63,901 nucleotides of DNA from the NCBI GenBank assembly GCA_005792355.1, contig SXSC01000394.1:1-63901 (forward strand). The letters are read 5' to 3'. Below the pieces are notes generated by a model. It saw nothing but the letters and a program-made list of their open reading frames with translations. It was not told where the DNA came from and ran no database searches. Below, piece by piece: positions 17,467 to 29,676 of the stretch. A program made the position numbers and the translations under genes. Each line of letters opens with the position of its first letter. Position 1 is the first letter of the stretch. The DNA is from Opitutaceae bacterium. Lineage in GTDB: Bacteria; Verrucomicrobiota; Verrucomicrobiia; Opitutales; Opitutaceae.

Positions 17467-18528
17467 ATGACCACCTCTCAATGGGACACGATTAAACGCG
17501 CCGCCCGGCTCGAGAAACTCCGGCAGGTTCCGCTGGCGCTCATCATCGACAGCCCGTGGATCCCCGGCTACGTCGGCGTGAATCATCTCGATTTCTTCCT
17601 CGACCCGCAGATCTGGTTCCAGTCGCACCGCCAGATTCACCGGGAGTTTCCGGACATCATCTTCGTCCCCGGCTGGTGGCTGGAATACGGCATGGCCGCG
17701 GAGCCGTCGGTGTTGGGATCGAAGATCAAGTTCTGGCCGAACAACACCCCGAGCGAGTGCCACATGCTCTTCAACATCGAGGATGTCGACCAGCTGGCTG
17801 GCTACGAAGTCGAGGCCGACGGGTTCATGGCCCTGACGTTGCATCGTCTCCGCATGCAGCGGCAGCAGGTCCTCGACACGGGCGAGGCCTTTCGGATGGC
17901 GACCTCGCGTGGTCCGATGTGCACCGCCGGCTTTGCCCGCAACACGAGTGACTTCATGATCGACCTGATCGAGAAACCGGCCTGGGCCCACAAGCTCCTC
18001 GATCTCTCCACGCGCATCATCATCGACTGGCTGAAGGCGCAGGCCAGGGCGATGGGCCCGACCGTCGAGGGCATCTTCGTGCTCGACGACATCGTCGGCT
18101 TCGTGAACGAGGAATATTACAAGGAATTCTGCCATCCCTACCTGAAGCGCATCTGCGATGCTTTCCCGCCGGATTGGGTGAAACTCTATCACAACGACGC
18201 CTCGATCGAGGCGTGCCTCGAACATCTGCCCGACGCCGGTTTCAACCTGCTCAACTGGGGCAAGCAGACCGACATCGCCGACGTGAAGCGGCGCGTCGGT
18301 GGGCGCATGTGCCTGATGGGAAATGTCAACCCGCTCGAGGTCGGCGTCCGCGGCACGCCCGGGGAGGTGCGCGCAGCCACGCTGGCGGTCCTCGAAAAGA
18401 GCGGCGGCGAGGGCATCGTGCTCTCGGTGGGTGGTGGGGTGAGCCCCGGCATGCCGCGCCAGAACATCCAGGCGATGCAGGCCGCGCTCGCGGAATTCAA
18501 CCAGGCCCACTTCGGCCTGCGGCGCTGA
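17467..18528 (+). CDS. Uroporphyrinogen decarboxylase (URO-D) family protein
   Basis: A 353-residue TIM-barrel protein of the URO-D superfamily, which includes HemE and corrinoid/coenzyme-M methyltransferases. Characteristic pieces are the VKLYHNDASIEACLEHLPDAG and NLLNWGKQTDI blocks, GRMCLMGNVNPLEVGVRGTP and the C-terminal SVGGGVSPGMPRQNI. The HemE N-terminal RQAGRYMPEY motif that binds uroporphyrinogen is absent, so this is unlikely to be a haem enzyme and more probably a methyltransferase-like or unknown-function relative. It lies downstream of the Gfo/Idh gene after a palindromic repeat. Substrate unknown. Confidence 0.87.
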   Translation: MTTSQWDTIKRAARLEKLRQVPLALIIDSPWIPGYVGVNHLDFFLDPQIWFQSHRQIHREFPDIIFVPGWWLEYGMAAEPSVLGSKIKFWPNNTPSECHMLFNIEDVDQLAGYEVEADGFMALTLHRLRMQRQQVLDTGEAFRMATSRGPMCTAGFARNTSDFMIDLIEKPAWAHKLLDLSTRIIIDWLKAQARAMGPTVEGIFVLDDIVGFVNEEYYKEFCHPYLKRICDAFPPDWVKLYHNDASIEACLEHLPDAGFNLLNWGKQTDIADVKRRVGGRMCLMGNVNPLEVGVRGTPGEVRAATLAVLEKSGGEGIVLSVGGGVSPGMPRQNIQAMQAALAEFNQAHFGLRR

Positions 18529-18606: not shown

Positions 18607-20220
18607 TCACGCCGCCGCCGCGGTCTCAAAGACATGTTCGAACAGCACGGCGCATTTTTGCGGGAAGAGCGGCGGCGTGTACGCCTCCGGCAGGCCCTGG
18701 TCGAGTACGTCCTCGATTTCTAGCCGCACGCGCGCCCGCGTCTGGGCCTGCTGCCGCCAGTCGAGCGTCAACGACGCCTTCACCTGCTCCAGCAGGCGGC
18801 GGGCGACCTTCTTCACCTGCTCCCGCTCGGCGCGCGACAGCTCCGGCCCCGGGCGCGTCAACAGGTCGAAGACCGTCAGCTCCGCTTCGGTCAGGCTCTC
18901 GCGGACGTGCCGTTGCTGCTCGTCGGACAGGTTGCGACTCAGCTTCACCAGTTCGTCGAACAACTCCTCGATGCTTCGACTGCCCGCGTTGTAGCTTTCG
19001 ATCAGCTCCTCGAACTTTTCCGCGAAGCCGGCGCGGGTCTTGTTTAGGCGGATCAATTTTCCCAACTGGGCGCGGATCGCGGCTTTTAGGATTTCGAGGT
19101 CGGTGTTCTTGGTCTTCGACTGCTTGAACTTCTTCGCGAGCGCCTGGAAGTCGATCTTGGACAGGTCGAGGGCCGCATTCGATCTGGTGGGTATCGCCAC
19201 CCCGGTGATCGATGCGTCTAAGACTTGGTTGATGCCCTCCATCACCGCCGACAAATCGACCGGCTCGGGTTTCAGCTTGGCATGGATTGCGTCGGCGATC
19301 GCGGCCAGACATGCCACCCGACTGGCGAACTCCAACGCCGCCGGGTCGGGCTTCACGGCGCCATAGAGGGTGCTCACGAGCCGATGATGACCAAAAAACT
19401 CGCGTCGCAACGGGTCCGGTGAAATCAGCGCGTCAACCGCGGTAACAATCCGTTCCAACCGCTCCATGCTGCCCAGCGGCAATTGTTCAGTGGCCGCGAG
19501 GCTGACGCCTCGCTCTCCACAAAAATCCGTTGCCGCCGCCAAGCCTTGGAGCAACTTGGTGGCGACCACCAACTCGCAGCGCGGCGTGCCTTCCTTCTGG
19601 TCGTAAACCGCCACGGCCTGCGGGGCGCCGTCCTCATGCTGCGCCAGCGTCAGCAGGCCGATATGATCGCGGATCATCTTGCCGTCGAGAGCGAGCGCCT
19701 GGGGCAGCGTGCCCGCGCGAGCCTGGAGCCAGTCGTGCAGGAGCGTGGCGAACGCCTCGCTGTCCAGACGGGTGAGCACCGCGTAGAACACGGAGTAGGT
19801 CGGCACCTCGTAGAAGGCCCGCTGCCAGTGCTCCGGCAACGCGCGCACCGCCGCGGCAAGGGTTTGGGTCGCCAGATTAGGGGCTTCGCCCTTGGCGGTG
19901 AGTAAAAGGAAGCGGCGGTTTTGCCCGATCAGTTTCAGTCGTTCCACCCGTTGCGTCGTGCTCCAGCCGAGCCACCGGTCGCGATCCTTCAACGCGTAGC
20001 AGGCCGGCCCCCAGGCCAGCAGTGCCGCGGGCCGGCCGCGCACTTTGACAATCTGACGCAGGTAGTCGCCCACGGGCCGGCCCGCTTTCAGGTATTGGCG
20101 CTGCGTCAGTTGCTCATCAAACCACGCCACGCCTGCTGGCCCCACGATCTCGACTTCAAGCTCTGGTCGCTCGGATGCCGCTTCGGCGGCCGTTTCTATA
20201 GTTGGATGGGCAGGATTCAT
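18607..20220 (-). CDS. Chimeric protein: DruA-like + ISAs1 transposase start + HsdR C-terminus
   Basis: A 537-residue frame built from three recognisable parts. Residues about 22-136 resemble DruA/DUF4338 (YLKAGRPVGDYLRQIV, then DRDRWLGWSTTQRVERLK and NRRFLLLTAKGEAPNLA). Residues 137-225 match the start of ISAs1-family transposases (VPTYSVFYAVLTRLDSEAF, then LPQALALDGKMIR with the first catalytic Asp). Residues about 228-537 match the C-terminal domain of type I restriction subunit HsdR (LRREFFGHHRLVSTLYGAVK, then EKFEELIESYNAGSRSIEEL, LLTRPGPELSRAEREQVKK and GLPEAYTPPLFPQKC). The other transposase catalytic residues and the HsdR nuclease/helicase motors are missing. The frame is unbroken over 1.6 kb. 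The start is MNPAHP; eight more codons are open upstream. It may be a fossil deletion fusion or a repurposed protein. Confidence 0.82.
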   Translation of the reverse strand: MNPAHPTIETAAEAASERPELEVEIVGPAGVAWFDEQLTQRQYLKAGRPVGDYLRQIVKVRGRPAALLAWGPACYALKDRDRWLGWSTTQRVERLKLIGQNRRFLLLTAKGEAPNLATQTLAAAVRALPEHWQRAFYEVPTYSVFYAVLTRLDSEAFATLLHDWLQARAGTLPQALALDGKMIRDHIGLLTLAQHEDGAPQAVAVYDQKEGTPRCELVVATKLLQGLAAATDFCGERGVSLAATEQLPLGSMERLERIVTAVDALISPDPLRREFFGHHRLVSTLYGAVKPDPAALEFASRVACLAAIADAIHAKLKPEPVDLSAVMEGINQVLDASITGVAIPTRSNAALDLSKIDFQALAKKFKQSKTKNTDLEILKAAIRAQLGKLIRLNKTRAGFAEKFEELIESYNAGSRSIEELFDELVKLSRNLSDEQQRHVRESLTEAELTVFDLLTRPGPELSRAEREQVKKVARRLLEQVKASLTLDWRQQAQTRARVRLEIEDVLDQGLPEAYTPPLFPQKCAVLFEHVFETAAAA

Positions 20221-20264
20221 CCATATTATCCCAAACCAAAACACCCGCTTTTGTCTGGAAAAAA

Positions 20265-20280: not shown

Positions 20281-20382
20281 TCACAAACTTACGCAGTCAA
20301 AAATATTGGCCATGGCCCTGCACTATAGGGACGGCGATCTGCCCTTGCTATACTGTGGCGGGGTGACCATAGTATATTTCCC

Positions 20383-20778
20383 ATGTCATCAAAGAAACTC
20401 AAAGAATTGGTGGAAGCGCGCGCCAAGCTCGCCAGCCTTGAACAGTCCATTGCACTTGAGCTCAGGAAGGAATTGAGCGGTCTGCCGGCACAATACGGCT
20501 TTGCCTCGGTGGCTGAATTTGTCGCCGCCGTGAAATCCGCGGCAGGTGCCCGTCGCGGTCGCAAGCCCGGCAAAGCCAAAGCCAAGGCCAAAGCCAAGGC
20601 GAAGGTCGGCGGCAAGAAGCCTCGCACCCGAGCGGTCATCACCGATGCGACCCGCGCGGAGGTGAAGCAGCTGGTGGCCGCCGGCAAGACCGGTCGCGAG
20701 ATTGCCAAGGCCGTGGGGATTTCCCTCCCCAGCGTGCATAACCTCAAGAAGGCGCTTGGCCTGGTGAAAAAGCGCTGA
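20383..20778 (+). CDS. Basic DNA-binding protein, coiled coil + AK-rich linker + helix-turn-helix
   Basis: A 131-residue strongly basic protein. Residues 1-32 form an amphipathic helix (KKLKELVEARAKLASLEQSI). Residues 36-50 (AQYGFASVAEFVAAV) resemble the oligomerisation part of H-NS-like proteins. Residues 53-85 are a Lys/Ala/Arg linker containing an alternating KAKAKAKAKAK run. Residues 86-127 form a Hin/resolvase-type helix-turn-helix (TDATRAEVKQLVAAGKTGRE then IAKAVGISLPSVHNL). It looks like a nucleoid-associated or regulatory protein. It is divergent from the transposase/HsdR chimera and ends in a strong terminator, so it is a single-gene unit. A TATACT box at 20349 could be its -10. I know no named homologue. 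Confidence 0.8.
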   Translation: MSSKKLKELVEARAKLASLEQSIALELRKELSGLPAQYGFASVAEFVAAVKSAAGARRGRKPGKAKAKAKAKAKVGGKKPRTRAVITDATRAEVKQLVAAGKTGREIAKAVGISLPSVHNLKKALGLVKKR

Positions 20779-20806
20779 TTCGCCGTCGCCGGCGTCCGAC
20801 TTGCGC

Positions 20807-20835
20807 GCCCCCGCCAGCGGCGGGGGCTTTTTTTT
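20807..20835 (+). terminator. Intrinsic terminator
   Basis: Nine-bp GC stem (GCCCCCGCC/GGCGGGGGC) with a three-base loop followed by eight T residues, about 30 bases after the stop of the helix-turn-helix gene. Confidence 0.92.
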
Positions 20836-20877
20836 GCTTGGGCGCCCGGGCCAACCTCGGCGAATGTCCGCCTCCGC

Positions 20878-21792
20878 ATGCCGGTCCCCTTCATCCAGGC
20901 CAATACCAATGGTCGCCTCCACGCGGCGACCGAGCCGTCGGTGACTCCCCTCAACCGCGGCTTTCTCTATGGCGACGCTATTTATGAGGTCTGGCGTACG
21001 TATCATGGCGTCGTGTTTGCGTGGGACGAACACTACGATCGTTTGGAAAGATCGGCCGGGGCCCTGCACCTGTCCCTGCCGTGGGCCCGCGCGGCGATCT
21101 TCATGGAAGTGGCGAGGACGGTCGCGGCCTATCGCGAAGCCACGCGGTTCCTGGGAGAGGTCTATGTCCGGCTGCAGGTGTCGCGTGGCGGAGGCTTGAT
21201 CGGCCTCGACGTGGCGCTGGCGGACCAGGCTGATTTCGTGGTGCTGGTGCAGCCCTGTCCGGAAAATTCGGCCGAAGTCACGCAACGGGGGCTGCGGCTC
21301 GCGGTGGCCACGGGGTTGCGGCGCAATCCGATCGAGACGCTGAACCCGGCCTGGAAGACGGGTAACTATCTGAACAACATTCTTTGTCTGCGCGAGGCGC
21401 GGGCCGGCGGCGCTGATGACGTGTTGATGCTGAACCTGCGCGGCGAAATCACGGAGGCTGCGACGTCCAATATTGCATTTGTGCGCGACGGCGCAGTGCT
21501 GACGCCCCGGCTCGAGGCGGGCATCCTCGGTGGCATTACCCGGGGTCTGATGCTGGGGCAAGTCGCCCCCGGGGCCGGTGTGAGCGCCAGCGAGGCGACC
21601 CTTTGTCCCGCGGACCTGGACAGGATGAGCGAATGCTTTTTGATGTCGACGACCAAGGACATCGTGCCGGTTGGGTCGATCGACCAGGTGGGATTCGCGG
21701 TTGGGCCCGATACGGTCACGGTGCGCCTAAAAGCGGCGTTTGCGGATTATGCCCGCGGGGCGGCGGCGGCGCATCCGGAGCGCAGGGTGTAG
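20878..21792 (+). CDS. Class IV pyridoxal-phosphate aminotransferase
   Basis: A 304-residue fold-type IV PLP enzyme, the group of branched-chain aminotransferase IlvE, D-amino-acid aminotransferase and aminodeoxychorismate lyase PabC. The N-terminal NRGFLYGDAIYEVWRTYHG and the cofactor lysine in LNPAWKTGNYLNNIL are clear, as are GEITEAATSNIAFV and the phosphate-binding GILGGITRGLML. The wording of the motifs (RGFLYGDAIYE) does not separate the three activities. trpE and folC, genes of chorismate and folate use, lie within 11 kb, making PabC-like lyase activity one option, but this is weak context. Confidence 0.88.
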   Translation: MPVPFIQANTNGRLHAATEPSVTPLNRGFLYGDAIYEVWRTYHGVVFAWDEHYDRLERSAGALHLSLPWARAAIFMEVARTVAAYREATRFLGEVYVRLQVSRGGGLIGLDVALADQADFVVLVQPCPENSAEVTQRGLRLAVATGLRRNPIETLNPAWKTGNYLNNILCLREARAGGADDVLMLNLRGEITEAATSNIAFVRDGAVLTPRLEAGILGGITRGLMLGQVAPGAGVSASEATLCPADLDRMSECFLMSTTKDIVPVGSIDQVGFAVGPDTVTVRLKAAFADYARGAAAAHPERRV

Positions 21793-21827
21793 CGCGCATT
21801 TTTCCCGGCGCGGCAACCGCAACCGAA

Positions 21828-21898
21828 GGAGGGACGGTTTCCCAACCGCCCAAATACGGTCGCCGGGGATTCTTCGGCGGTTGGGAAACCGCCGCTCC
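21828..21898. repeat. Double-hairpin element, GGAG/CTCC ends
   Basis: Arms 21828-21850 and 21876-21898 are inverted repeats at 21 of 23 positions. Each arm is itself a hairpin: CGGTT-TCCC-AACCG (21835-21848) and CGGTT-GGGA-AACCG (21878-21891), with exactly complementary loops. Confidence 0.78.
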
Positions 21899-21940
21899 GG
21901 GACGGAGGATCAAAATCGCCGCGCCCCGCCAGCGCGGCGA

Positions 21941-23110
21941 TCAGTACCGCCGCAGGCTTGGATCGATTTCCTTCGCCCAGGCGTCGATTCCCCCGGCGAT
22001 GTTGGACACGGCCGGATGGCCGTGCGCCCGCAGAAATTCCGTCACGCGCCGGCTGCGTCCGCCGACGTGGCACAGGATGAGCAGATGTTGATCGCGCGGC
22101 AGCGAGTCCGCCTGTTCGGGAATCTGGCGCATCGGGATGTGCTCGGCGCCGGCCAGCTGGCAGATCTCCAACTCGCAGGGCTCACGCACATCGATGATTT
22201 TGGTCCGCTCCGGGGCCGAGTCGTGGAGATCTTTCGCCTCGGCGACGGAGATCTCGATCGGGTATTCGACGTCGGACCCGCGCGGCAGTGGCGCCGGGCA
22301 GGGCGCCGCGCTGTAGCGCTCGGGGTTGAGGTCGCGGATTGCTGGCCGGTCCCCACACAGTGGACAGCCCGAATCAGACTTGAGTTGCAGGTTCTGGAAC
22401 TTCTGGGCGAGCGAATCGTACATCAGCAACCGTCCGCGCAGTGATTCACCAATTCCGGTGAGGAGCTTGATGGCTTCGAGCGCCTGCAGGCTGCCGATGA
22501 CACCGCAGAGCGCGCCGAGCACGCCGGCCTCGCCGCAGCCGGGAACGGTCCCGGCCCGCGGGGGTTCGGGAAAAAGGCAGCGGTAGCACGGACCACCGTG
22601 GGTCGGATCAAAGACCGCGACCTGCCCCTCAAACTTGAACACACTGCCGTAGACCAGGGGGCGACGCGCGAAGAACGCGGCATCGTTGTTCAGGTAGCGG
22701 ACGCCGAAATTGTCGGTGCCGTCGACCACCACGTCGTAGTCGGAAAAAAGCGCGACCGCGTTGACGGGGACGATGCCGTCCGCGTGGGTGACGATCCGCA
22801 CAAACGGGTTGGTCGCCCGCAGGCGACGCGCGGCGGAGGTCACCTTGGATTCGCCGACACTGGTGTCGTCGTGGAGCAGTTGGCGTTGCAGATTGTGCAC
22901 CTCGACGAGGTCAAGGTCGGCGATGCCGATGGTGCCAACGCCCGCGGCCGCGAGGTAGAGCGCGGCCGGGCTGCCGAGGCCGCCGGCGCCGACGACCAGC
23001 ACGCGGGCGGCGGCGAGTTTCTGCTGACCAACGAGGCCCACCTGATCGAGCAGCAGGTGCCGGCTGTAGCGCGCGAGTTCGGCGGGCGAGAGCACGGGTG
23101 CGGTGGACAT
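21941..23110 (-). CDS. moeB: MoeB/ThiF-type adenylyltransferase with C-terminal rhodanese domain
   Basis: A 389-residue E1-like enzyme that adenylates the C-terminal glycine of a small sulfur-carrier protein (MoaD or ThiS) and, through its rhodanese domain, can load it with sulfur. The ATP site is VVGAGGLGSPAALYL (about residue 41), the catalytic cysteine region is CGEAGVLGALCGVIGS, and two zinc CxxC pairs occur (CYRC and CPLC). The rhodanese domain (about 290-389) has its active-site Cys in LLILCHVGGRS. This is the MoeZ/MOCS3 layout. Start MSTAPVLS; the frame continues upstream but only antisense to ruvX. It could serve molybdopterin or thiamine synthesis. Confidence 0.93.
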   Translation of the reverse strand: MSTAPVLSPAELARYSRHLLLDQVGLVGQQKLAAARVLVVGAGGLGSPAALYLAAAGVGTIGIADLDLVEVHNLQRQLLHDDTSVGESKVTSAARRLRATNPFVRIVTHADGIVPVNAVALFSDYDVVVDGTDNFGVRYLNNDAAFFARRPLVYGSVFKFEGQVAVFDPTHGGPCYRCLFPEPPRAGTVPGCGEAGVLGALCGVIGSLQALEAIKLLTGIGESLRGRLLMYDSLAQKFQNLQLKSDSGCPLCGDRPAIRDLNPERYSAAPCPAPLPRGSDVEYPIEISVAEAKDLHDSAPERTKIIDVREPCELEICQLAGAEHIPMRQIPEQADSLPRDQHLLILCHVGGRSRRVTEFLRAHGHPAVSNIAGGIDAWAKEIDPSLRRY

Positions 23111-23142
23111 GGCGGCGAAAGAGAGCCGGAACCCGGCCGGTC

Positions 23143-23156
23143 GCAATTGAAATTGC
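23143..23156. promoter_or_regulatory. Small palindrome between moeB and ruvX
   Basis: GCAATT-GA-AATTGC in the 78-base divergent space between two start codons. AT-rich within GC-rich surroundings, so it may be part of a promoter or operator. No regulator can be named. Confidence 0.25.
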
Positions 23157-23188
23157 ACCGGCGGGCAGCCCACGGCGGAATTGCCCGG

Positions 23189-23629
23189 ATGCGTTGTCTC
23201 GGAATCGACCACGGTGCCCGCCGGATCGGGCTCAGCTACGGCGACGAGCTCGGCGTGGCCACGCCGCTGCCCGCGTTGACCGAGGTCGAGGCGGCGAAGC
23301 GGTGGGCCGCGCTGGCGGCGGTCGTGAAGCAGCGCCGGGCAACCGATCTGGTGGTCGGGCATCCGCTGAATATGGACGACACGCCCGGGTTCAAGGCGAA
23401 GGAAATCGAGGCCTTCGCCGCGCGCCTGCGCGCCGAATTCGGGTTGCCGGTGCATCTCGTGGATGAGCGGCTGACGAGCTACGAGGCGGAGTCGACGATC
23501 GCGAAGTCGAAGCGGCGCGAGGTGCGGGCGAGCGGGATCATCGATTCGCGGGCGGCGACGCTGATCCTGCAGGATTTCCTCAATCAGAAATTTCCGCCGC
23601 CGGCGTCCGAGGAGGGTGTGCTGCCATGA
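23189..23629 (+). CDS. ruvX: Holliday-junction-resolvase-like protein RuvX/YqgF
   Basis: A 146-residue RNase H-fold nuclease required for 16S rRNA 5'-end maturation in E. coli and suggested as a junction resolvase. The first catalytic Asp is in CLGIDHGARRIGLSYGD (residue 6), followed by DLVVGHPLNMD with the conserved GxPxxxDG-like motif, then HLVDERLTSYEAE, and the last acidic residue near IDSRAATLILQDFL. The start is ATG at 23189 giving MRCLGIDHG. It overlaps truA by four bases (ATGA), starting a tight run ruvX-truA-comF-accD-folC. Confidence 0.95.
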   Translation: MRCLGIDHGARRIGLSYGDELGVATPLPALTEVEAAKRWAALAAVVKQRRATDLVVGHPLNMDDTPGFKAKEIEAFAARLRAEFGLPVHLVDERLTSYEAESTIAKSKRREVRASGIIDSRAATLILQDFLNQKFPPPASEEGVLP

Positions 23630-24390
23630 GCATCCGCCGCTGGAAGTGTGTCTGTGCCTACGACGGCACGGAGTTTGCCGGCTGGCAAAGCCAGATGGGA
23701 GGCACGGCCATCCAGGATGTGATCGAGGCGCGGTTGGCGCAGATCTTCAAGGCGCCCGTGCGGATCCACGGCAGCGGGCGCACGGACGCGGGGGTGCACG
23801 CGCGGGGCCAGGTGTTTCATTTTGACGCCGAGTGGCCGCATGCGGCGGGAAAGATGCTCGCGGCGTTTCGCGTGGGATTGCCGGCGGCGATTCAGATCAA
23901 ATCGGTCCGGCCCGTGGCACCGGATTTTCACGCGCGCTTCCAGGCGACGGGAAAATGCTATGTGTACCACCTTAGCCTGGGTGATGCGGATCCCTTCACG
24001 CGGGCGTTTTCCTGGCAGATTTTCCGGCCGCTCGATGTGGAGGCGATGCAGGCGGCGGCGGCGGTGTTGCGCGGGCGGCACGATTTCCGGGCGTTTATTG
24101 CGTTGAATGGACCCGCCCGCGAAGACACCGTGCGCGACTTGCGGCGGCTCGAAGTTGTGCGGCGCGGCCGGCGAATCCGGATCACCGCGGAGTCCGCCGG
24201 TTTTCTCTACAAAATGGTGCGCAGCCTGACCGGCGCGCTTGTCGCGGTGGGTGACGGGCGGCTGAGGGTGGACGACGTGCGCGAACTCCTGCGGTCGAAG
24301 GAGCGAATCCCCGCGGTGAAAACGGCCCCGCCCCACGGGCTGTTTCTGATGAAGGTGTGCTATGGAGGAACGGGGAGGCGGCGTGCATGA
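23626..24390 (+). CDS. truA: tRNA pseudouridine(38-40) synthase
   Basis: TruA isomerises uridines 38-40 in the tRNA anticodon stem-loop to pseudouridine. The catalytic aspartate is in the family motif GSGRTDAGVHARGQV, and the AYDGTEFAGWQ and ESAGFLYKMVRSLTGAL motifs are complete. The 254-residue length is normal. It is coupled to ruvX and comF by ATGA overlaps at both ends. Confidence 0.97.
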   Translation: MSIRRWKCVCAYDGTEFAGWQSQMGGTAIQDVIEARLAQIFKAPVRIHGSGRTDAGVHARGQVFHFDAEWPHAAGKMLAAFRVGLPAAIQIKSVRPVAPDFHARFQATGKCYVYHLSLGDADPFTRAFSWQIFRPLDVEAMQAAAAVLRGRHDFRAFIALNGPAREDTVRDLRRLEVVRRGRRIRITAESAGFLYKMVRSLTGALVAVGDGRLRVDDVRELLRSKERIPAVKTAPPHGLFLMKVCYGGTGRRRA

Positions 24391-25145
24391 ACCCACTGCT
24401 GACGCAGGCGGCCCGCGGGCTTTCCGACGTGATCTTTCCGCCGGTTTGCGTGCATTGTCGCGCGCTGGTCACGACGGTCGACGGCCCGCCGGGTGAAGGC
24501 CGCGCGTTCCGACACCTTTGTGCGCCCTGTGCGAGACAGCTCGACTACGTCCAGCCGCCGCATTGCGCGACCTGCGGCCATCCGTTCTACGGGGTCGTCG
24601 ACGGTGCCCGGATGTGTCCGAAATGCGAAGGGCTGGATCCGGCGTTTCGGGAGGGCCGGACGGCGGTGTTGTTCAAGGGCCCGGCCCGGGCGTTGATCAT
24701 CGAGTTGAAATATCACCGGGGGCTCCACGTGCTGGAGGACTTGGGCGAGATTTTCCGGCGGGCCCCGCATGTGCTCGCAAGTGTGCGCGGAGCGACGCTG
24801 GTGCCGGTGCCGCTGCACCCGCGCAAGGCGCGGGAGCGCGGTTACAACCAGGCGTTGCTGCTGGCGCAGCGACTCGCGACGGCGGCGGGCGCGGAGACCC
24901 AGGTGGAGTCGCTGCTGCGGCGCGACGTTGACACGCCGACGCAAACCGCGTTCGACCGGCGGACGAGGATGGCCAATTTGAAGAATGCCTTTGCACTTGC
25001 CGCGGGGGCCGCGCTCAATCCGGATCTGCACTACATCATTATCGATGACGTCTTCACCACCGGTTCCACGCTCAACAGCTGTGCCCGCACGCTCCGGCGG
25101 GCTGGAGCGGTGAAGCTGGACGTTGTCACCTTTGGCCACGGCTAA
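24387..25145 (+). CDS. comF: ComF family phosphoribosyltransferase-fold protein
   Basis: A 252-residue ComF/GntX-type protein linked to DNA uptake in competent bacteria. The N-terminal zinc finger is visible as cysteines in PPVCVHCRAL, HLCAPCARQ, HCATCGHPF and MCPKCEGLD. The C-terminal half is a phosphoribosyltransferase domain with the PRPP loop YIIIDDVFTTGSTLNSCA. The start is the ATG that overlaps the truA stop, with GGAGG nearby upstream; a longer frame starting inside truA is unlikely. Whether this organism is competent cannot be judged here. Confidence 0.92.
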   Translation: MNPLLTQAARGLSDVIFPPVCVHCRALVTTVDGPPGEGRAFRHLCAPCARQLDYVQPPHCATCGHPFYGVVDGARMCPKCEGLDPAFREGRTAVLFKGPARALIIELKYHRGLHVLEDLGEIFRRAPHVLASVRGATLVPVPLHPRKARERGYNQALLLAQRLATAAGAETQVESLLRRDVDTPTQTAFDRRTRMANLKNAFALAAGAALNPDLHYIIIDDVFTTGSTLNSCARTLRRAGAVKLDVVTFGHG

Positions 25146-25152
25146 TTCTGCC

Positions 25153-26025
25153 ATGCATTTCGACAAACCCACCTACACGGTTCGCAAGGTCCGCAAGAAG
25201 GACATTCCCAAGGGGCTTTACACCAAGGATCCCGCCACGGGGGATATAATCTTTAACAAGGAGGTTGAGGACAACCAGATGGTCTCGCCGAAGAGCGGTC
25301 ACCATTTCCCGATTGGGGCGCGCGCGCGGATCGCCCACTTGTTGGATGCGGGTACCTTCGTGGAGGCGGACGCCGAAGTGAAATCGAGCGACCCCCTGAA
25401 GTTTGTCGATTCCCAGCCCTATCCGGAGCGGTTGAAGCGCTACGTGCGTGACAGCGGCCTGCCGGAGGCGGTGGTCTGCGGGTGCGGCACGATTCTGGGC
25501 CTGGAGGTATCGGTGGCGGTGATGGATTTTCGATTCTGCGGCGGGGCGATGGGGGCGGCGGCCGGGGAGAAAATCACCCGGGCGATCGAGACAGCGATCA
25601 AACGCCGGATTCCGTGCATCATTTTCAGTGCCTCCGTCGGCGCGCGCATGCAGGAGGGGATTTACTCGTTGATGCAGATGGCGAAGACCAGCGCGGCGCT
25701 CGGCCGGCTCGCGGCGGCCCGGCTGCCGTTCATCTCGGTCCTGACGCATCCGACGATGGGTGGGGTCACGGCCAGCTTCGCAACGCTGGGCGACGTGATC
25801 GTGGCGGAGCCGGGAGCCCTGATCGGATTTGCCGGCGCCCGGGTCATCAAGGATACCACCAAGCAAACGCTGCCCGCCGGATTTCAGACCGCCGAGTTCC
25901 TGCTGAAGCACGGACTGATTGACCAGATCGTGAGCCGGCTCGAGTTGCGTGACCGCCTGCACGAAATCCTCTCGGCACTGCATCTGCGCAAAAAGGCGCC
26001 GCTGCCGGCGGCGGGCGGCAACTAG
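25153..26025 (+). CDS. accD: Acetyl-CoA carboxylase carboxyltransferase beta subunit, zinc ribbon lost
   Basis: AccD with AccA transfers carboxyl from biotin to acetyl-CoA to make malonyl-CoA for fatty-acid synthesis. The 290-residue protein has the crotonase-like core (GGAMGAAAGEKITRAIE, then SASVGARMQEGIYSLMQM and HPTMGGVTASFATLGDVI). The four cysteines of the usual N-terminal zinc ribbon are absent: where other AccD proteins read CPKCGHHF this one reads SPKSGHHF, and the first CxxC is replaced within GLYTKDPATG. Also SVGAR replaces the usual SGGAR. Start MHFDKP, seven bases after comF. folC follows, a common pairing. Confidence 0.94.
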   Translation: MHFDKPTYTVRKVRKKDIPKGLYTKDPATGDIIFNKEVEDNQMVSPKSGHHFPIGARARIAHLLDAGTFVEADAEVKSSDPLKFVDSQPYPERLKRYVRDSGLPEAVVCGCGTILGLEVSVAVMDFRFCGGAMGAAAGEKITRAIETAIKRRIPCIIFSASVGARMQEGIYSLMQMAKTSAALGRLAAARLPFISVLTHPTMGGVTASFATLGDVIVAEPGALIGFAGARVIKDTTKQTLPAGFQTAEFLLKHGLIDQIVSRLELRDRLHEILSALHLRKKAPLPAAGGN

Positions 26026-26034
26026 CCCGGAAAA

Positions 26035-27306
26035 ATGCGGGCGAGCGCGTACGCGGCGGCGTTGGACTATCTCTTCGCCCAACGGGCGCACGGGCCGAAA
26101 TTCGGTGTCGATCGCATGGCGTTGCTCGCGCCGGCACTCGGCCATCCGGAGCGAGCCGTGCCCTGTCTCCACGTGGCTGGCACGAATGGCAAGGGCTCGG
26201 TGGCGGCGATGCTCGACGCGATTCTGCATGCGGCCGGCTGGCGGACCGGGCTCTACACGTCGCCGCATCTCGTCCACCTCGGTGAGCGTGTGCAGGTGGA
26301 CCGCCGCATGCTGCGCGAGGCGGAGATCGTCGCCTATCTGGCGGAATTGCGTCCCATCGCGGAAAAGATCTCCGGGGAAAATGCCGCCGACCACCCGAGT
26401 TTCTTTGAGTTCATGACGGCCATGGCGTTCCTGGAATTCGCGCGGAGGCGTTGCGAGATCGGGGTGATTGAGGTGGGGCTCGGTGGCCGGCTCGACGCGA
26501 CGAACGTGATCACACCGGAGGTGACCGTGATCACCTCGATTGCGATGGATCACTGCGAAATCCTGGGCGACACGATCGAAAAGATCGCGGCGGAAAAGGC
26601 GGGCATCATCAAGCCGGGCCGGCCGGTGGTGGTGGGTCGGGTGCCCGCTGCGGCGGAAACGGTCATCCGGACGATCGCCGGCGAACGCGGTGCTCCGGTG
26701 CGATCGGTGGAGGAGGTGTTTGGTCACGAACTCGACGGCTACCCGCACACCAATCTCGAGGGAGACTACCAGCGTTGGAATGCGGCGACGGCCACGCTGG
26801 CCGCGCGCGCCCTCGAGGGGAAATGGAATATCACGGGCCCCGCGATTGCCCGCGGCCTCGCGCACGTGGACTGGCCGGGGCGCTGGCAGCGCGTGTCGCT
26901 TGGCGGGCGGCTGGCGATCCTGGATGCATCGCACAACCCGGAGGGTGCGCAGGTGCTCGACTCGAATCTGCGGCACCTCGTCGCTGAAACCGGCCGGGCA
27001 CCCGTCGTGATTACGGGTGTGCTCGGCGCGGCGCGGGCGCGGCCCTTGATCGAGACGATCGCGCGCCATGCGCGGGAGATTCACTTCGTCGTGCCGCAAC
27101 AGCCGCGGGCCTGCTCCTACGACGAGCTGACGGCCCTGGTGCCGGCGGAATTTCGCGGACGGGTCGTGCGTGGAACGGTGGCGGACATTTTTCCCGGACC
27201 GGATCAGTGCACGGTCGGCGGCACCGCGGACGTCGTGGTGGTCACGGGCTCAATCTTCCTGTTGGGCGAGGTGATGGGGCGGCTCGAGAGCGCCAAGCCG
27301 AAGTGA
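26035..27306 (+). CDS. folC: Folylpolyglutamate synthase / dihydrofolate synthase
   Basis: FolC attaches glutamate to dihydropteroate and adds further gamma-linked glutamates to folates. The 423-residue protein has the P-loop HVAGTNGKGSVAAML, the second ATP motif SIAMDHCEILGDTIEKIAAEK, and the C-terminal Mur-ligase-like domain with ILDASHNPEGAQVL. The start MRASAYAAAL is 9 bases after accD. It closes the ruvX-truA-comF-accD-folC run. Confidence 0.95.
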   Translation: MRASAYAAALDYLFAQRAHGPKFGVDRMALLAPALGHPERAVPCLHVAGTNGKGSVAAMLDAILHAAGWRTGLYTSPHLVHLGERVQVDRRMLREAEIVAYLAELRPIAEKISGENAADHPSFFEFMTAMAFLEFARRRCEIGVIEVGLGGRLDATNVITPEVTVITSIAMDHCEILGDTIEKIAAEKAGIIKPGRPVVVGRVPAAAETVIRTIAGERGAPVRSVEEVFGHELDGYPHTNLEGDYQRWNAATATLAARALEGKWNITGPAIARGLAHVDWPGRWQRVSLGGRLAILDASHNPEGAQVLDSNLRHLVAETGRAPVVITGVLGAARARPLIETIARHAREIHFVVPQQPRACSYDELTALVPAEFRGRVVRGTVADIFPGPDQCTVGGTADVVVVTGSIFLLGEVMGRLESAKPK

Positions 27307-27455
27307 TCCGGGTCTGCCGGCTGGAGAAACAAGTGCTCGTCATGGTGGGCTTCGCGGCTGGCCATCGCGCGATTGTTTACGCAGGCAGACGAGAGGCGGC
27401 CCGGCCTGTAACTTTTCCGCGATTCGCGGGTTCTGGAGGCAATCCTGATCCGCGC

Positions 27456-27668
27456 ATGAAATTCCTCATCGCACTCCTGCTTTGGGCAATCGTCCTCCTG
27501 CTGTGCTGGCCCATCGCGCTGCTGTTGTTGGTGCTGTGGCCGATCCTGTGGTTGCTCTCGATTCCGTTCCGCATGGTCGGAACCCTGGTGGAGGCCTTGC
27601 TCGCGTTGGTGAAAGCCGTGCTGTTCCTCCCGTCACGGATTCTCGGCGGCGGTGACCGGCAAACGTAG
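27456..27668 (+). CDS. Small hydrophobic membrane protein (70 residues)
   Basis: Starts MKFLIALLLWAIVLLLCWPI, with one or two membrane segments in residues 2-36, then an amphipathic helix (VGTLVEALLALVKAVLF) and a short tail SRILGGGDRQT. A GGAGG lies 15-20 bases before the ATG, a little far. Composition is that of a real membrane protein and the reading frame fits the gap. No family is recognised. Confidence 0.65.
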   Translation: MKFLIALLLWAIVLLLCWPIALLLLVLWPILWLLSIPFRMVGTLVEALLALVKAVLFLPSRILGGGDRQT

Positions 27669-27786
27669 GGAACCGCTCCTCTCGGCTCAGCCAGCCTGAT
27701 GGCCGACCGCGAGCGGAACGAATCAGGCTCGCCCACGGCGCAACTCTGGACTCGCCGTGACGAGCCTTGACGGTAAATTTTGCGCG

Positions 27787-29490
27787 ATGCGTCGCCTCGC
27801 CGTTTGCCTACTCCCGTTGATTCTGATCGTCGGTGCCCAAGCCAGCCTCCCGGTGGCGGTGAGGCCGGTCACGGCTGCGCACGGCATGGTGGTGGCTGCG
27901 CACCCGCAGGCGGTCGAGGCGGGGCTCGCCGTCCTAAAGGCCGGGGGCAACGCCGTCGATGCCGCGGTCGCGACTTCTCTCGCAGTCGGGGTTGCCGAGC
28001 CCTACGGCTCCGGCCTCGGAGGTAAATTGATGCTGCTCTACTTCCACGCGGGCACGGGCAAGACGCATGCGGTGGAGGCGATGGATGCGGCGGGCTCGAT
28101 CGATGTAGCGGCCTACTTGAATCGTCCGACCGATGAGCGCAGCTACGGATATGGCGCGGTGTGTGTGCCGGGGCTCGGCGCGGGACTCTGGGCCACCCAC
28201 CAAAAATGGGGGGCGAAACCCTGGGCCGAGGTCGTGCAACCGGCGATTGTCCTCGCGCGATCCGGTTTTCAGATCCTGCCAAAGAGCCGGGAGCATTTTG
28301 CCGAACAGGAAAAAAAACTGCGCCGCGGCGACGCTGAGATCGCCCGGCTTTATTTGCCGCACGACCGGTTGCCGGCCGTCGGTTCCCGGCTGGCGAACGA
28401 GGACCTGGCGCGGACGATGGAAGCGATGGCGCAGCGGGGCCGCGACGGGTTCTACCGTGGCGCGGTCGCGGCGGCGATCGTGGCGGCGGTGCAGCAGGGC
28501 GGCGGGTCGCTCACGCTGGCCGATCTTGCAAACTACGAGGCGCGCATCGTTGAGCCCGTCACGATGGACTTTCGCGGCTACACGCTGCAGTGCGGGCCGC
28601 CGCCGTCGAGCGGCGCGGCGCTTTTTCTACCGATCCTGAAGGTATTCGAAAAGGAAACCTTCGGTGGTGGCCCGCTGCGCACCGCGGCCAACCTCGACCT
28701 CATCGGGCGCGTCTGGCGCGAGGCTTATCCCGCGATCGCACGCAACATCGGGGATGTGCCGGAGTCGCGTTTTCGGCTGGAGCAGCTGTTGGCGCCCGCG
28801 GCCATCGCGGACCTGCGGGCCCGGGCGTTTGGTCCGCCGCGGGCCAGAAAAAAGGTGGCGGTCCGGGACGCGCGTGAGGAGGAATTGCGCTTTTATGAGA
28901 GCGCGATGGCGGCGACGACGCACTTCATCGTGGTCGATCGCGCGGGCAACATCGTCTGCGCGATCCAATCCCAAAGCCTGCATTTTGGCGCGGGGGTGGT
29001 GCCCCCGGGCACCGGCGTCGTGCTGAACAACTCGATGAGCAATTTCGCGACCACCGGCCCGCAGGGCCCCAACTATGTCGCGCCCGGGAGACGCCCCCGC
29101 AGCACCATCGGGCCGACGATTGTGCTCCGGGAGGGCAGACCGGTTTTCGCGATCGGGATTCCCGGTTCGTCCCGCATTCCCACCGCCCTCTTGCAGGTAT
29201 TGCTGGATCGACTGGCGTTGAACCGTCCGCTGGCCGCCGCGATTGGCGACACCCGGGTGCACTATCAGTCCGGAGAACGTGCGGGAGAGTCGGATACGTT
29301 CGAGGCCGAGGCGTCCCTGCCGGCCGGGGACGTGCAGGCGCTGCGAACGCTCGGCTGGCGAGTCGAGCTGCGCGAGGCGGCGGGCACGGGCCGGCATTTT
29401 GGCGGAGTCAACGCCGTCGAATTCAACGCCGACGGCACGCTGACCGGCTACGCCGACCCGCGCCGGACCAACGTGGCGGCGGGGCACTGA
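27787..29490 (+). CDS. ggt: Gamma-glutamyltransferase
   Basis: A 567-residue periplasmic or secreted N-terminal nucleophile hydrolase that cleaves gamma-glutamyl bonds (glutathione, gamma-glutamyl peptides, possibly poly-gamma-glutamate). A signal peptide is present (MRRLAVCLLPLILIVGAQA). Conserved blocks are MVVAAHPQAVEAGLAVLKAG, YGSGLGGKL, the autoprocessing site ahead of the nucleophile Thr at about 377 (AATTHFIVVDRAGNIVCAIQ), FGAGVVPPGTGVVLNNSM and GIPGSSRIPTALLQ. I start at MRRLAV rather than ten codons upstream because it begins the signal peptide. It opens the group of glutamyl-related genes that runs to 41 kb. Confidence 0.92.
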   Translation: MRRLAVCLLPLILIVGAQASLPVAVRPVTAAHGMVVAAHPQAVEAGLAVLKAGGNAVDAAVATSLAVGVAEPYGSGLGGKLMLLYFHAGTGKTHAVEAMDAAGSIDVAAYLNRPTDERSYGYGAVCVPGLGAGLWATHQKWGAKPWAEVVQPAIVLARSGFQILPKSREHFAEQEKKLRRGDAEIARLYLPHDRLPAVGSRLANEDLARTMEAMAQRGRDGFYRGAVAAAIVAAVQQGGGSLTLADLANYEARIVEPVTMDFRGYTLQCGPPPSSGAALFLPILKVFEKETFGGGPLRTAANLDLIGRVWREAYPAIARNIGDVPESRFRLEQLLAPAAIADLRARAFGPPRARKKVAVRDAREEELRFYESAMAATTHFIVVDRAGNIVCAIQSQSLHFGAGVVPPGTGVVLNNSMSNFATTGPQGPNYVAPGRRPRSTIGPTIVLREGRPVFAIGIPGSSRIPTALLQVLLDRLALNRPLAAAIGDTRVHYQSGERAGESDTFEAEASLPAGDVQALRTLGWRVELREAAGTGRHFGGVNAVEFNADGTLTGYADPRRTNVAAGH

Positions 29491-29676
29491 GGCGGCGGGT
29501 CGCCGGCGGCCGGCGGCTGGCGGTCGCGCCGGGAGCAAGCGGAAGGAGAGAGAGGCAACCGGGATCGATGGCCGCCGCCAAAAAATTGCGGAAATTTCGT
29601 TTGGCGTGCTTGCCCCGCCGTGACGGGCTCTCACCTTGGCAAGACCCATCCCCCGGGCAATTCCCCCACCACACCC

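Follow-up and report, generated by a model that had tools for sequence, protein, structure and literature searches.

An open frame joining a DruA-ISAs1 transposase remnant to an HsdR tail in an Opitutaceae genome is very probably a recent deletion-fusion relic

The window analysed here, positions 1-63,901 of contig SXSC01000394.1 of an Opitutaceae bacterium (GenBank assembly GCA_005792355.1), carries on its minus strand an open frame (P0001) whose product would begin as a transposase and end as an HsdR protein, and the question raised by this locus is whether such a frame encodes a working new protein or is the residue of rearrangement. A first-pass annotation had described it as an uninterrupted three-part chimera of DruA-like, ISAs1 and HsdR segments, either very recent or maintained. 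The frame is indeed open from end to end (Table 1), with an alternative GTG start possible at 20244 and coding-like third positions (GC3 of 0.81). Its length of 537 codons, together with two domain matches above their cut-offs, argues that it is not a product of chance.

Table 1. Features of the chimeric frame and its surroundings, in window coordinates
Feature	Position	Strand	Basis or remark
Chimeric open frame P0001	18607..20220	-	537 aa plus TGA stop; no internal stops
Residues 1-136, DruA module (N-terminal part) from a DruA-ISAs1 transposase	19813..20220	-	PF14236; L028 alignment
Residues 137-226, piece of an ISAs1 transposase containing ALDGKMIR	19543..19812	-	NF033564; L028 identity
Residues 227-537 (311 residues), HsdR C-terminal part	18610..19542	-	PF11867; 63% identity to G196 tail
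URO-D family gene (PF01208), left flank, convergent with the chimera	17467..18528	+	
Small gene with HTH_23 domain, right flank	20383..20778	+	Pfam
IS left end, CAGGGCCATGGCC... (minus strand opens CAGGGCCATGG at 20320)	20300..20320	-	Like several named copies
9-bp CACTATAGG, candidate target duplication	20321..20329	+	Single occurrence in the window
Join 1, where 162 internal codons (486 nt) present in L028 are missing, in frame	19813..19819	-	BLAST pieces
Join 2, residue 226/227	about 19543/19544	-	ISAs1 identity to L028 ends at G226, HsdR afterwards

All three segments named by that annotation were recovered in profile searches. The DruA profile PF14236 (Pfam) matches residues 11-139 with 34.3 bits (cut-off 27), aligning positions 40-172 of its 297; the ISAs1 profile NF033564 (NCBIfam) matches residues 137-210 with 22.2 bits, under its cut-off of 70, and aligns positions 38-108 of 314; and T1RH-like_C (PF11867) matches residues 251-527 with 128.7 bits (cut-off 26.8), the sole domain above its cut-off in the HsdR part. 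PADLOC reports REase_I at residues 251-508 and DruA only at an E-value of 0.01. The middle segment retains ALDGKMIR, which we take to be the motif bearing the first catalytic Asp of ISAs1 transposases, and the remainder of the catalytic domain is missing. A phmmer search of the frame against solved structures returned none at E-values up to 1, and structure predictions were too poor to use, with a mean pLDDT of 48.8 for the chimera and 43.7 for the DruA domain of a named transposase copy (L037).

Comparison of the frame with the genome contigs collection returned 14 loci, 13 of which (L028-L040) encode a DruA module first and an ISAs1 module after it. Both modules are present in all 13 of these named copies and lie in one open frame in 12, the exception being L038, where the two parts occupy different frames. 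Pfam searches of L037, L028 and the more distant L015 gave DruA matches of 54-66 bits plus a DDE-associated domain. A group of insertion sequences thus has DruA followed by ISAs1 as its native, ordinary architecture, and since the two modules form a single transposase, the frame derives from two source genes and not from three as had been proposed. Our literature search found no paper pairing either DUF4338 or DruA with ISAs1. Because DruA here also forms the N-terminus of ISAs1-type transposases, a PF14236 match alone is no proof of a Druantia system. The frame moreover differs from Druantia in carrying an incomplete DruA module and in that the DruA module of its relatives is a transposase N-terminus and not a Druantia gene; the genes immediately beside it are one of the URO-D family and a small one with an HTH domain. 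It shares with ISAs1-family elements a left terminal sequence resembling that of several named copies, but has neither a complete DDE transposase nor, in the window piece, a right end.

The nearest copy, L028, is identical to the frame at 119 of 158 positions over residues 1-158, a stretch that extends beyond join 1, and at 91 of 99 over residues 134-232, which extends a few residues beyond join 2. Measured against this copy, the border at residue 136 that had been read as a fusion of DruA to ISAs1 is an internal deletion, through which the DruA module loses its later part and the ISAs1 module its beginning. Seven base pairs at 19813-19819 align to both flanks of the deletion and possibly represent microhomology. 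One DUF4338 domain is described as GNAT-like in a passage of PMC10853773, and a deletion of this extent is predicted to destroy such a fold.

Relative to L028, the frame also lacks everything past residue 226, together with the right end of the IS, and the residues that follow resemble the C-terminal end of an HsdR-type frame of 1052 residues in another genome (G196, L080). They share with type I HsdR proteins the C-terminal domain PF11867, the endonuclease and motor domains being missing. Some HsdR matches appear to start at residue 144-150 (in G002, G016, G028, G056 and G196), which would place HsdR sequence well upstream of join 2. For the two alignments inspected, G056 and G196, we rejected this placement, as the upstream region of HsdR aligns only weakly there over the ISAs1 segment; L022 of G028 gave no alignment. 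The chance that both joins would fall in frame is about 1 in 9.

Full-length homologues with the same three-part order had been suggested as a check. Among 56 relatives, 16 match some part of the whole frame and none joins a high-identity transposase part to the HsdR tail; a 61-residue probe spanning the junction matches three, on the transposase side only in each case, and finds no match across the join in G002, G016, G028 or G056 (G196 lies outside this set). The join was likewise not found in the 14 loci of the genome contigs collection, in plasmids (31 records match the frame, none at 80% coverage) or in phages (one record, at 21% coverage), and no relative of the frame was found among viral contigs. 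A functional three-domain chimera was rejected on these grounds. By itself, the HsdR tail has matches at E-values up to 1e-20 in seven of the 371 further genomes searched from the order; six of them lie in open frames of 1047-1211 residues and the seventh in a frame of 175 residues that has a stop.

We also considered how the transposase came to lie where it does. The DNA match to L028 extends to window position 20316, close to the outer limit of the IS left end, and the 9-bp CACTATAGG abuts that limit. In all seven relatives examined by tblastn, the small HTH gene is immediately preceded by an SDR gene, and this pair is split here. The SDR gene of the same genome (G000) is found on another contig, C193 (L100), where it is 86% identical to that of G001 and the match stops 187 bases short of the end of the contig. 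A second CACTATAGG occurs on C193 at about 148-156, 28 nt past the SDR stop, and minus the insert, 90 nt would separate the SDR and HTH genes. A URO-D gene beside the HTH gene was not seen in the fetched stretches of relatives, and tblastx of the relatives' upstream regions against the window gave noise alone among the matches listed.

The two copies of CACTATAGG flank unlike ends, since the end of C193, CACGGCAGTGTCA, does not resemble the right ends of the named DruA-ISAs1 copies (12 of 13 compared). It is instead a repeat shared with contig C198, 99% identical over 147 bases, and no IS right end is present in the window piece. We read CACTATAGG as a candidate target duplication left by an insertion that later underwent internal rearrangement; a composite insertion or a later IS-mediated rearrangement may account for the difference between its ends. 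Elsewhere in the genome, another DruA-type element, 44-46% identical to the DruA part in the window, lies at the starts of three contigs (C156, C211 and C220; L004, L006 and L007). The three copies have the upstream sequence GACGGTGTCAGC... in common, for which reason this element probably breaks the assembly.

To the right of the break, the gene beginning at 20383 was at first taken by its appearance for H-NS-like, an assignment rejected once Pfam identified the HTH_23 domain. The heptamer CTTGCTA occurs upstream of its start at 20344-20350, in the window and in all seven relatives, and is possibly a promoter element that the insertion spared.

The HsdR tail had been proposed to let a fused protein dock on a type I complex, and the genes for such a complex were sought in the same assembly. 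PF11867 matches nothing there other than the chimeric frame; PF04313 has one match, under its cut-off and containing a stop; PF01420, used to search for HsdS, has none; and PF02384 has three matches, none of them a convincing hsdM, one being a protein with sub-cut-off MmeI/Eco57I matches and the other two short frames, each at the start of a contig. An intact HsdR, HsdM or HsdS was thus not seen, and with an assembly of 416 contigs at 98% completeness, absence of these genes is likely though unproven. Unlike a type I restriction system, then, the frame has neither a detected hsdS nor a convincing hsdM to accompany it, and docking finds no support in these searches.

Broken hsdR tails of this type also occur in two further genomes of the genus. 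In one genome (G010; L010/L076), the tail is reduced to the part corresponding to residues 400-537 and lies about 500 nt from an integrase gene; the C-terminus of the chimeric frame ends where this remnant ends. In the other (G012; L024/L077), an HsdR N-terminus (PF04313) runs out of frame into residue 384 at a contig end, and upstream of the broken gene lie hsdS, a gene for an OLD-like ATPase and a Fic gene.

Selection on the frame was assessed by codon likelihood with three taxa and branch-specific dN/dS, using a custom script; silent sites are saturated towards the outgroups, so that the branch dN/dS has little power and is not decisive. For the transposase part, the log likelihood was -1451.14 with one omega and -1452.49 with a neutral window branch, and for the HsdR tail the corresponding values were -1151.05 and -1150.08. 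Divided further, the DruA part gave -898.25 with one omega, -896.67 with the window branch free and -896.74 with it neutral, and the ISAs1 part gave -538.77, -537.58 (with a lower omega on the window branch) and -538.83, so that the subsets do not point the same way. Neutral evolution on the window branch since the join was therefore not rejected by this three-taxon analysis.

Positions that are otherwise invariant offer a second view. Three of the 91 positions invariant in 12 other transposases are broken in the transposase part, where the others break 0-6. In the HsdR part the count is 1 of 48 when the G010 remnant (L010) is included (others 1-6) and 7 of 95 when it is left out (others 5-14). 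As such positions are broken no oftener here than in other copies, there is no sign of decay, nor is there one of maintenance. Under neutrality, the computed probability that no stop would have arisen since the join is 0.065 at 0.05 changes per site and 0.58 at 0.01, which implies that the join is young if the frame is neutral.

These observations are most readily accommodated if the frame, instead of encoding a working new protein, is a recent deletion-fusion relic of an insertion sequence and of a type I locus since lost, a reading that we consider very probable. An ISAs1-family element with a DruA-bearing transposase would have left its left end just upstream of the HTH gene, as suggested by the end sequence, the 9-bp repeat at the break and the broken synteny. 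The transposase gene would have lost 162 internal codons, probably through slippage between short repeats, and a second deletion or rearrangement would have taken away the remainder of the IS together with the greater part of a type I restriction locus, so that codon 226 of the transposase now continues in frame into the final 311 codons of hsdR. The join itself is observed, and the path to it is reconstructed, as neither the right end nor the missing part of hsdR was located. The product is predicted to have neither transposase nor restriction activity, given a partial DruA module, some 90 residues of catalytic domain and the loss of the HsdR endonuclease and motor parts; the frame would still be open because the join is recent and stops have had little time to accumulate. 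Counted against this reading are the freedom of the frame from stops and frameshifts, the fact that both joins are in frame, the lack of any positive sign of decay and the unlike ends flanked by CACTATAGG. Of the alternatives that the first-pass annotation had left standing, the inactive relic or deletion scar agrees with the missing join homologues and with selection indistinguishable from neutral in a low-power codon test, and of its choice between very recent and maintained, a recent join is favoured and no sign of maintenance was seen.

An assembly artefact, in which an IS piece and an hsdR tail from different places or strains were joined at about 19543, is suggested by the 416 contigs and 5.06% contamination of the assembly, by IS-like ends at the starts of C156, C211, C220, C193 and C198, which imply that the assembler struggled with repeats, and by a somewhat higher GC content in the right flank (0.665 over 20400-29600) than in the left (0.63). 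We nevertheless regard it as unlikely: the join is in frame, the chimera (0.632) has the same GC content as the left flank, with a segment to the far right (40-49 kb) at 0.630, and the boundary at 20320 is independently backed by the 9-bp CACTATAGG on C193. Nor was a close copy seen that could have caused a misjoin, the eight other matches in the same genome being 35-46% identical and confined to the DruA part.

That selection has kept a chimeric protein, started by the IS and using the helical C-terminal domain of HsdR to bind a methyltransferase core or some other partner, would account for the length and GC3 of the open frame, for a C-terminus coinciding with the end of the G010 remnant and for the persistence of the frame if neutral change had reached the higher of the two divergences considered above. 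It is very improbable, however, in view of the severed DruA module, the lack of any homologue with the join in the 56 relatives and the genome contigs collection, the failure to see an HsdM or HsdS partner in the assembly and a window branch for which neutrality was not rejected. Hardly credible is a further variant, in which a newborn translatable chimera takes its promoter, start and N-terminus from the IS and its HsdR docking domain serves as a decoy for incoming type I methyltransferase cores. If the frame is the relic that we favour, it illustrates how a long open frame resembling a designed multi-domain protein can arise from an IS through deletions.

More interesting than the chimera is an apparent -1 frameshift in the DruA-ISAs1 transposases. 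In all 13 named copies (L028-L040), the DDE domain continues in the -1 frame for its last third, and at the switch there is in each a run of three to five C followed by five to seven T (for example CCCCCTTTTT at L037:7238-7247 and CCCCTTTTTT at L028:2801-2810); the distant L015 has the same arrangement, with six C and six T. The 0 frame covers positions 1-179 of the ISAs1 profile in L037 and 1-180 in L028, and the -1 frame covers 198-314 and 200-313, respectively. L033, L034 and L038 carry further breaks. According to a 2012 paper, reports of such fusion products were at that time confined to the IS1 and IS3 families (PMC3281130). The arrangement resembles a programmed -1 frameshift and is probably one.
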